Below, piece by piece: positions 30,888 to 33,651 of a stretch of DNA of 64,000 nt. The stretch comes from Alphaproteobacteria bacterium (GTDB lineage Bacteria > Pseudomonadota > Alphaproteobacteria > Ferrovibrionales > Ferrovibrionaceae). The notes beneath the pieces were generated by a model. The model had not been told where the DNA came from. It did no database searches and saw nothing but the letters and a program-made list of their open reading frames with translations. A program made the position numbers and the translations under genes. The first letter of the stretch is position 1. The number at the start of each line of letters is the position of its first letter. Where the stretch lies: assembly GCA_947473805.1 (NCBI GenBank), contig CANJGB010000001.1, positions 229,413-293,412 on the forward strand, given 5' to 3'.

Positions 30888-31403
30888 CTACGAAGCAGTT
30901 GGATGGTCGGCGGCGCCGAGCGCCACGCAGGCGAAGCAGTCCAGCGTGAGGACGTCCGTGGGTCCTTCGCAGCGATCGCAGGGATTGCCGTCGAACAGGT
31001 CGTCGTCCTCCGCACAGCGACGGCAGTCCGTGTCTTTCGCGGCGTGGCGGCGGACCGGCTTGTCGGCAAGCAGGCGATTGGCGGCATCGACCAGGCGGCT
31101 GTCGGGCATGCGCGCCAGCGTCGCAAATCCCGCGAGTTTGGTGGCGGACCACGGCCGTTGCGTCTCAAGCCAACGGGCGAAGGCCGCCTTGGCGACAGTG
31201 GGGCCGGTTACCAGAAAGCGCTCCGCGTCACCCAAAGCCTCGAACACCGCAATGTAGTAGGGGGCTGCCTCACGGTCGGCGCCTCCTGTGCCGGCCGATG
31301 CCGGCGGCACCACGCGCCGATAGTCGACGCCATGCTCATATAGCCTTGCAACCCGCGCATCGTGTTGGTCGATCCACACAATGGCCTCGTAGGATTCCGA
31401 CAC
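30888..31403 (-). CDS. eRF1-domain-3-like protein with C-terminal CxxC cluster
   Basis: A 171-residue protein. Residues 1-115 resemble the small proteobacterial proteins named translational machinery protein (bacterial eRF1-like): YEAIVWIDQHDARVARL, then YYIAVFEALGDAERFLVTGP and a conserved Ala-Lys. Residues 120-171 add three CxxC pairs (127/130, 142/145, 156/159), probably a zinc-binding ribbon. GTG 31403 is the start because GGAGG lies 5 bp before it (31409-31413); the longer reading to 31505 is not needed. The eRF1-like match is from memory of the family, and the function is unknown. It converges with the CHAT protease gene. Confidence 0.6.
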   Translation of the reverse strand: MSESYEAIVWIDQHDARVARLYEHGVDYRRVVPPASAGTGGADREAAPYYIAVFEALGDAERFLVTGPTVAKAAFARWLETQRPWSATKLAGFATLARMPDSRLVDAANRLLADKPVRRHAAKDTDCRRCAEDDDLFDGNPCDRCEGPTDVLTLDCFACVALGAADHPTAS

Positions 31404-31555
31404 CGTCGCCTCCGTGACAAACTGGTGCAAGTGTCGAACATCCCGGTCCCGCGGGGATTGATCCGTATCAATTGGCCTGCGAAATGCCCATGTCGCGGCC
31501 TGCACGTATTGCGCCTTGACGGCCCCGGTCAGGGGCAGGATAGCTTGTCCCCTCG

Positions 31556-32382
31556 ATGTCCCCCTTCCAAGTCCGCCACCGCGAACTGATTGCGTTCGCC
31601 GTTCTGCTGGTCGCGCCCGGCTTCATGTCGTCGGCCATGGCGGTGGCGCGCGTGGCGGCGGAGCATCAGTTGCCGCCGATCGCCGTTTCGTTCGGGCGGT
31701 GGTTCGTCATGGGCGCGGTCCTGTTGCCGTTTACCGGGCTCAACGCCTGGGGTCACCGGGCGGTCATCCGGGCCAACTGGCTGCGCCCATCCTGATCGTG
31801 GTGGGCGCGGTCCTGTTTCTCGGCGAGCGCATTATCGCGCGCCAGGTGTGCGGCATACTGCTCAGTCTCGCGGGCGTCGTTGCCATCGTGGCCAAGGGCG
31901 ATCCACATGTGCTGCTGCACCTCGACCTCGTGCCCGGTGACCTTTGGACCCTGTTCGGCTGCTTCTGCTGGGCAACCTATTCGTTGATGTTGCGGGCGCA
32001 TGGCCTGTTGTTGCCGGCGCTGACACTGATGTGTGTCACCGCCTTGTTCGGCGCGGCGGCGATGCTGCCGCTGGCCATTTGGGAATGGTCGCGGCTGGGC
32101 TTCGCCGTCGATACCGGCGCGCTGTTCTGGGTGGTGCTTTATACCGCGCTTGTTCCGGGGCTGATCGGCTATCGCCTGCACGCCCATGCCACAGCGGTAT
32201 TGGGCGCGGGGCGCAGCGCGGTGGTGAACTACATTGCGCCGGTCTATGCGTCGTTCTACGGCTGGCTGCTGTTCGGCGAGCGGCTGCTGCCATATCACCT
32301 TGTCGGCGGCGGGCTGGTTTTCGCCGGCGTCTTCCTCGCTAGCCGGGCGCGCCGGCCTAGCTCCGGTCCTTCTCCGAGTTGA
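31556..32382 (+). pseudogene. EamA/DMT-family permease, internal deletion and frameshift
   Basis: Two frames together give an EamA (drug/metabolite) transporter. Frame one (31556-31795) encodes the N-terminal helices up to VIRANWLRPS. Frame two continues from about 31785 with APILIVVGAVLFLGERI to 32382. In homologues about 35 residues lie between these points. The junction at about 31783-31788 thus fits a deletion of about 105-115 bp that is not a multiple of three and removes a helix or two. The remaining helices look otherwise intact, so the loss is recent. An assembly error is an alternative. Only a weak ribosome site precedes ATG 31556. Confidence 0.75.
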
Positions 32383-32710
32383 AGTCGGCTGCCTTGTCGT
32401 CCTCGCCCTCATATTCTTCGCGGGCGTCGTCCGCGTCCAGCCGTTCAAAATCGTCGTCGGGGAAGTCGGCATTGACCACGTCGAGGAATTCGGCGCGGGC
32501 GTCCTCGGATTTCAGCATCAGGGCCGGTTCATTACTGGCGCGGATCATCAGCAGCGAGACGCCGTTGCTCAGGTCCTCGCTGCAATACGGACTGTCTTCG
32601 CGGGTGCCGCTGGGATGCCGGGCGCAGGCCATGAGGTGCGCCTTTTCCTCGCGCGTCACGGGCGGATTGGCGGTCAGAAACTCGTCGAAATCGGTCGTGG
32701 TGGCCGCCAT
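32357..32710 (-). CDS. Small acidic hypothetical protein
   Basis: A 117-residue strongly acidic, probably cytosolic protein. Its C-terminal third is nearly all Asp/Glu (FPDDDFERLDADDAREE). It has single Cys residues in CARHPSG and YCSEDL but no clear domain. ATG 32710 has AAAGGAAC upstream (32716-32723). The coding sequence overlaps the last 26 bp of the EamA pseudogene on the other strand. I do not recognise a characterised family. Confidence 0.65.
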   Translation of the reverse strand: MAATTTDFDEFLTANPPVTREEKAHLMACARHPSGTREDSPYCSEDLSNGVSLLMIRASNEPALMLKSEDARAEFLDVVNADFPDDDFERLDADDAREEYEGEDDKAADFNSEKDRS

Positions 32711-32865
32711 GGGGCGTTCCTTTCTCCACATGATGAGAGAAAGGAGAACGGCTGGCTTGCGGCCAAGGTTCCTGCAGGCCCCGTCCGCCCTGCGGGCGAA
32801 TGAGGCGTTGACGCCGCCCCCCGGCCGTTGCGAGGCTAGGATACAGGCATGCGGGAGGAAACAGC

Positions 32866-33651
32866 GTGACCGATAAAGGCGGCAAGGGGCCATTCGACCT
32901 CAGCGGGCGCGTGGCGCTGGTCGTGGGCTCCAGCATGGGCATCGGGCTCGGCATGGCTGCGGCCTTGGCGCAAGCCGGCGCGACGGTCGGCATTAACGGG
33001 CGCGACAGGCCGCGTCTGGCCAAAGCGCACGAAAGCCTGGTGGCGCAGGGCTTGAAGGCCATCGCACTGCCGTTCGATGCGGCCGATTTCGACGCCTTGC
33101 ACGCCGGCATCGATGCGCTCGTCCGCCAGGCGGGGCCGGTCGATATCCTGATCAACAATGCGGCGGTGAACCCGCGCGCGCCTTTGGCCGAGATGACGCT
33201 GGACCAGTGGCACTCGGCGTTTCGCCTCAACCTCGATTCTGCACTCGTCGCCAGCCAGAAAGTGGCGCCGGGCATGATCGCGAAAAAGCGCGGCAAGATC
33301 ATCAACACGCTGTCGCTCGCGACCGACATCATGCGGCCGACGACGGCCGCCTATGCCGCCAGCAAGGCCGCAGGGCGCATGCTGACCAAAGCCTTGGCTG
33401 TGGAATGGGCGCAATACAACATCCAGGTCAACGCGATCAGTCCGGGCTGGAACCGGACCGAGCGCATGGCCTTCAACCTCAGCCGCCTGCCCGACCTCGA
33501 TGCCTGGGTGAAAAAGCAGACGCCACTCGGCCGGTGGAGTGACCCGATGCAGGATCTCGGCGGCGCGGCGGTCTATTTCGCGTCCGATGCCTCAAACTTC
33601 GTGACCGGCCAGACTTTGCAGATCGACGGCGGCATGACGGCGACGTTCTGA
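32866..33651 (+). CDS. Short-chain dehydrogenase/reductase
   Basis: A 261-residue SDR. The nucleotide motif is VGSSMGIGLG (20-29; the usual TG is VG). It has NNAA (97-100), Ser150, Tyr163 and Lys167 (AAYAASKAAG), so the catalytic set is complete. It would oxidise or reduce a hydroxyl/ketone with NAD(P). The start is GTG 32866 with GGGAGGAAA at 32850-32858. It is followed 29 bp later by a paralogue (33681), and the two share near-identical motifs, which suggests old tandem duplication. With the SnoaL-like gene they form a three-gene catabolic unit. Confidence 0.9.
   Translation: MTDKGGKGPFDLSGRVALVVGSSMGIGLGMAAALAQAGATVGINGRDRPRLAKAHESLVAQGLKAIALPFDAADFDALHAGIDALVRQAGPVDILINNAAVNPRAPLAEMTLDQWHSAFRLNLDSALVASQKVAPGMIAKKRGKIINTLSLATDIMRPTTAAYAASKAAGRMLTKALAVEWAQYNIQVNAISPGWNRTERMAFNLSRLPDLDAWVKKQTPLGRWSDPMQDLGGAAVYFASDASNFVTGQTLQIDGGMTATF

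Follow-up and report, generated by a model that had tools for sequence, protein, structure and literature searches.

A predicted Pelota/eRF1 central-domain protein with a three-CxxC tail, encoded in a single alphaproteobacterial genome

The central domain (domain 2) of eRF1 is an RNase-H-fold domain that bears the GGQ loop. Among the closest described counterparts of the protein reported here, P0001, are the standalone baeRF-1 proteins of bacteria, which, in the parts of PMC6514570 drawn on here, resemble it in comprising a central RNase-H-fold domain only, in their Gln-less loop and in their scattered distribution, and for which no Cys tail is mentioned there. The same parts of that source propose the Gln-less standalone families as non-catalytic factors of the ribosomal A site, and describe a neighbouring HPF/RaiA gene for several of them and basic residues at the beginning of the post-loop helix. 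Balon, a bacterial three-domain relative, is a demonstrated ribosome hibernation factor (PMC10901736, in the part used here); the central domains of Balon, Rv2629 and Msmeg1130 align with P0001 (Z 10.3-11.2, 111-113 residues), but Balon is built of three domains and its action in the A site is established, whereas P0001 has one domain and a tail. Archaeal Pelota/Dom34, which likewise has a loop without the catalytic Gln, is the best structural match, P0001 differing from it in being bacterial and in having no flanking N- and C-terminal domains. The P0001 tail recalls zinc ribbons and CxxC modules in that its CxxC pairs lie 10-11 residues apart; in a zinc ribbon these pairs are placed on facing hairpins binding Zn, whereas the three pairs of P0001 are read from sequence alone, in a tail with 0 matches in the PDB, none in Pfam and no confident predicted fold.

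P0001 is encoded in the window, the whole stretch of 64,000 nucleotides that was analysed, by a frame of 171 aa with no internal stop, beginning with a GTG start codon (Table 1). No signal sequence was seen in the protein, and a search of P0001 alone against Pfam and NCBIfam returned 0 families (E up to 5 or 10, and again at 1).

Table 1. Features of the P0001 locus, with positions in the window
Feature	Position	Strand	Basis
TPR-CHAT protein, 1238 aa, convergent to P0001	27144..30860	+	ORF; Pfam CHAT PF12770 at residues 918-1233, TPRs
P0001, Pelota/aeRF1 domain-2-like core and Cys-rich C-terminal tail (predicted)	30888..31403	-	open frame, protein-search homologs, AlphaFold2 model
P0001 tail, residues 116-171	30891..31058	-	family comparison, model pLDDT
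P0001 CxxC pairs C127/C130, C142/C145, C156/C159	30927..31025	-	translation
P0001 core, residues 1-115, predicted Pelota/aeRF1 RNase-H-fold central domain	31059..31403	-	pLDDT mostly >90, Foldseek, VIA
P0001 loop, residues 32-47, GGQ-type-loop position	31263..31310	-	alignment, Pelota profile match, loop role in the cited part of PMC6514570
GGAGG, likely Shine-Dalgarno (SD)	31409..31413	-	read from sequence; 5 nt upstream of GTG start

The structure of P0001 is an AlphaFold2 prediction made from 59 alignment rows, not a solved structure; within the core, ten-residue blocks have pLDDT values of 87-95, except over the loop (75-76). A Foldseek search with this model placed Pelota first (3oby, E 3.5e-6), followed by Balon, aRF1 and eRF1, and VIA-align superposed it on residues 129-239 of Pelota 3oby with Z 12.2 (98 residues, 2.1 A) and on the Balon homolog Rv2629 with Z 11.2 (112 residues, 3.4 A). 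The model also reaches scores of 8-9 with glucokinase, xylulokinase and YqgF, whose folds are of the RNase-H type too, so that the predicted lead of the Pelota group is clear but moderate. When a nine-member family profile (P0001 and eight others) was compared with the PDB, it matched Pelota 3j15 (E 2.4e-6, chain residues 138-230), with further matches to 3oby (7e-4) and 2qi2 (7e-3). The model and the profile thus firmly indicate that residues 1-118 are the counterpart of domain 2, the central one, in the Pelota/aeRF1/Balon superfamily. The eRF1-like core recognised in the first-pass annotation is confirmed by these profile, Foldseek and VIA-align matches, and the eRF1 relation holds under structure prediction, but the domain named there, domain 3, is probably not the one matched: the leading Pelota/eRF1 alignments all fall in the central domain, although they come from a ranked list, in which the absence of domain 3 is no proof against it. 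The catalytic Gln of the aeRF1/VLRF1 loop (GGQ or GxuQ, after strand 3) is absent from P0001, whose residues 32-47 contain no Gln; R44 is the sole basic residue just ahead of the post-loop helix (residues 47-57).

Judged by overall similarity and by trees, and with both signature motifs missing, P0001 belongs to a family of short (110-143 aa), His-rich, standalone proteins that is scattered through Pseudomonadota. We take 'translational machinery protein' to be the database name of this family; used as a literature query, the name returned no relevant paper. P0001 as query finds family members at E values of 1e-10 to 1e-11 per genome, with matches in 12 of 61 genomes; a more stringent search of 289 genomes matched 3 (its own genome is included in both counts). 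Scanning GTDB contigs with a family profile gave 251 relatives; the best 80 of these 251 were analysed and, by their record titles, fall in the Alpha-, Beta- and Gammaproteobacteria. For comparison, 133 non-self family proteins (130 distinct) were pooled from several searches. Left out of these counts were a helicase-like ORF (L043), a copy of L013 (L029), P0001 itself (L001, L017 and L046), three members whose start was not located (L088, L093 and L098) and a short one (L116), these last four being without CxxC, as well as the duplicates L147-L150, which are copies of L052, L050, L074 and L122. No baeRF family of Pfam matches P0001, while four of 59 family members touch baeRF_family10 (best E 0.0046) and 11 of 59 match eRF1_2 (best E 9.8e-4).

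Canonical members are strikingly His-rich and almost Cys-free, and carry HxHHKA at the position of the GGQ loop. Among the 133 proteins the median length is 131 aa, the first 125 residues contain a median of 13 His (minimum 4), the DHP motif is present in 122 and Cys is absent from 112; a count over 105 family proteins gave 25 Cys among 13,671 residues. A crude G-Q pattern within residues 31-60 is not conserved, being present in 25 of the 133 relatives. The function of the canonical His-rich family may involve metal, pH or rRNA contact. The core of P0001 has 2 His against the family median of 13, and the alignment shows neither the HxHHKA-type loop segment nor the VETVDHPTDG motif; the near-invariant residues H6, H13, E94, D97, H98 and P99 are all missing. 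In sequence terms P0001 is the most aberrant family member found: both the His-rich loop and the DHP motif are gone, and a Cys tail has been added. The three-CxxC addition had been described in the first-pass annotation as not known from the family, and this stands, as no CxxC occurs in any of the 133 other members.

The surroundings of family genes are varied. In the 80 family loci, with the family gene and overlapping ORFs set aside, the commonest neighbour is found in 13 loci, the neighbour representatives with a Pfam match are housekeeping-type genes, and no consistent translation or hibernation gene accompanies the family members. No HPF gene was detected among the six window neighbours or the ten neighbour representatives scanned with Pfam. 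Family genes adjoin a zinc-type alcohol dehydrogenase gene in the distant hosts Variovorax (L014 and L015) and Reyranella (L052), and a universal stress protein is also encoded nearby in Variovorax L015.

All six Cys of P0001 lie in the tail, in the arrangement C127RRC130-x11-C142DRC145-x10-C156FAC159, and none in residues 1-115; at an assumed Cys content of 0.9%, at least six Cys in 56 residues would be expected by chance with p ~1e-5. The tail is acidic (net charge -6), and its model pLDDT is about 52-66 in the full-length protein and 51 when it is folded alone. Codon-position pattern is present in one frame through core and tail (0.23 and 0.14 bits/codon, respectively). The antisense frame of the tail scores equally (0.137), so that codon usage by itself is not enough to establish the tail as coding; an artefact of frame was nonetheless rejected, since pattern and frame match those of the core. 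Relatives with a Cys tail were sought widely. In GTDB contigs, P0001 as query gave no relative whatever, and the family pattern gave no Cys tail among the best 80 of 251 relatives; nor did any come to light among the 75 genomes surrounding the nearest relative, of which 43 had a match and 29 new proteins were read. Two plasmid records matched, neither with a Cys tail, and the phages and viral contigs searched gave no match. Searches with the tail alone in 18 genomes from the taxonomic family and 385 from the class (overlapping sets) gave no convincing homolog, the best non-self match (E 5.4e-4 per genome) having a stop inside it. Such matches were read as chance and rejected as homologs; one of them (L191) lies in a long multi-CxxC ORF, recombinase-like by eye, in which the CxxC spacing equals that of the P0001 tail. 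A literature search gave no description of a Cys-tailed family member. The tail is, on these searches, known so far from one genome only, so there is no second sequence in which conservation of the Cys residues could show, and this is the main limit of the case.

The same genome holds a second, canonical family member of 131 aa (G000:C1:43744-44142). The family protein of G159, a genome of the same class, is identical to that of a named alphaproteobacterium (L016 and L049), so that the class is probably Alphaproteobacteria. Two trees pair P0001 with a tail-less protein of a Reyranella sp. MAG (support 99/94 and 95/100), the second tree omitting L041, L042, L050, L175 and most betaproteobacterial rows, and P0001 has the longest branch in both (3.65 and 2.45); a sister relation to the paralog of its own genome is not rejected (p-AU 0.249). 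On the sequence evidence, P0001 is best read as a lineage-specific, strongly diverged copy of the standalone Pelota/aeRF1 central-domain (baeRF-1-like) family. It is possible, at a slightly lower likelihood than we would give a working factor, that this copy is a relaxed or decaying paralog beside the canonical one, its tail being a non-functional extension that arose, for example, by loss of a stop codon. The long branch, the lost near-invariant residues, the presence of the canonical copy, the restriction of P0001 to a single genome and the p-AU value for the sister relation would all fit decay. The ORF is intact, however, with a good SD, the core is predicted to fold with high confidence, the tail retains a coding pattern in the frame of the core, and a random extension would be unlikely to bring six Cys arranged as three exact CxxC pairs.

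It is somewhat more doubtful that P0001 has left the ribosome and become a small zinc- or thiol-binding or scaffold protein, in which the stable RNase-H fold would do no more than hold up the Cys tail. The missing loop, the few His residues remaining in the core (2, where the family has many) and the acidity of the tail agree with such a change, and RNase-H folds act as scaffolds elsewhere, according to the part of PMC6514570 cited here; the locus and protein give, however, no positive sign of another partner, and the characterised members of the superfamily work on ribosomes.

Downstream, the P0001 gene faces a gene for a TPR-CHAT protein (CHAT domain E 8e-56), the two ending at 30888 and 30860, respectively, with 27 bp between their stop codons, as the first-pass annotation had it. 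That annotation also raised, beside chance, a paired system sensing ribosome state or metal/redox. Such a pair might join a sensor to a protease in a defence-like arrangement. Besides the close convergent spacing, such pairing has in its favour that the CHAT and P0001 genes share a stretch absent from syntenic relatives. The aminopeptidase and GST genes occur together in all 12 relatives, with a TAXI-type protein seen in 10 of the 12, and after this GST-aminopeptidase block none of the 12 has anything from the CHAT gene onward in the 3.8-11.8 kb available. Pairing was nevertheless not found elsewhere: no homolog of the CHAT protein, of the aminopeptidase, of the EamA protein or of the 32357-32893 product occurs in the 80 family loci (blastp 1e-5, flanks up to 8 kb), and the other 19 CHAT loci examined (~1.5 kb each side where the contig allows) are without a P0001-family member, four of these loci belonging to the window's own genome, a comparison that covers tail-less relatives, as no other Cys-tailed member was found for the exact pair. 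Moreover, convergent genes share no promoter, and the CHAT protein, whose N-terminus resembles a signal peptide by eye, seems exported, whereas P0001 has no such sequence. A paired system is accordingly highly improbable, and the CHAT gene probably adjoins P0001 by chance. Of 18 genomes from the taxonomic family, 13 have a match to the TPR-CHAT query; the window genome has five (C1, in the window, C51, C44, C17 and C20), an expanded set. On the other side of P0001, the EamA transporter gene (31516-32382, plus strand) seems broken: the reading frame that opens at 31556 gives the N-terminal part and ends close to 31793, and the C-terminal EamA half is encoded in another frame, that of the 31516 ORF, which points to a pseudogene or an assembly error. 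The adjoining gene at 32357-32893 (minus strand) encodes a small acidic protein with no Pfam match.

Taking P0001 as a diverged baeRF-1-like protein, we tentatively favour a non-catalytic, ribosome-linked stress factor whose tail would bind a metal or be tuned by thiols. The fold and profile matches, the Gln-less loop, the position of the tail in the frame of the core, the good SD and the six perfectly paired Cys within a nearly Cys-free family are in favour of this reading. P0001 would not hydrolyse peptidyl-tRNA; it may instead assist under stress as an accessory factor at the ribosome or close to it, the role proposed for loop-inactive baeRF-1 proteins, while its tail, given three CxxC pairs, might bind zinc or cycle thiols, and the metal or thiol state of the tail could tune the binding or stability of the protein. 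By analogy, the GGQ-position loop is the segment likeliest to touch the ribosome, and P0001 has lost it. The comparison with baeRF-1 and Balon is weakened by this loss, and ribosome binding may be gone, because the loop is lost and the tail is acidic. That family genes have no consistent translation or hibernation gene as neighbour also speaks against the favoured reading. That P0001 is a metal- or redox-switched, single-domain hibernation or rescue factor, in which the His-rich loop was traded for the CxxC tail and zinc or thiol state decides ribosome engagement, we consider unlikely.

Single-domain bacterial relatives of Pelota and eRF1 are widely scattered, and we met none with a tested function in the literature. 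As one gene in one genome, P0001 has a small reach, and the wider family of His-rich proteins lends itself better to testing. If the metal- or thiol-binding tail is real, however, it would offer a handle, through metal content and Cys mutants, on the signal that such proteins answer.
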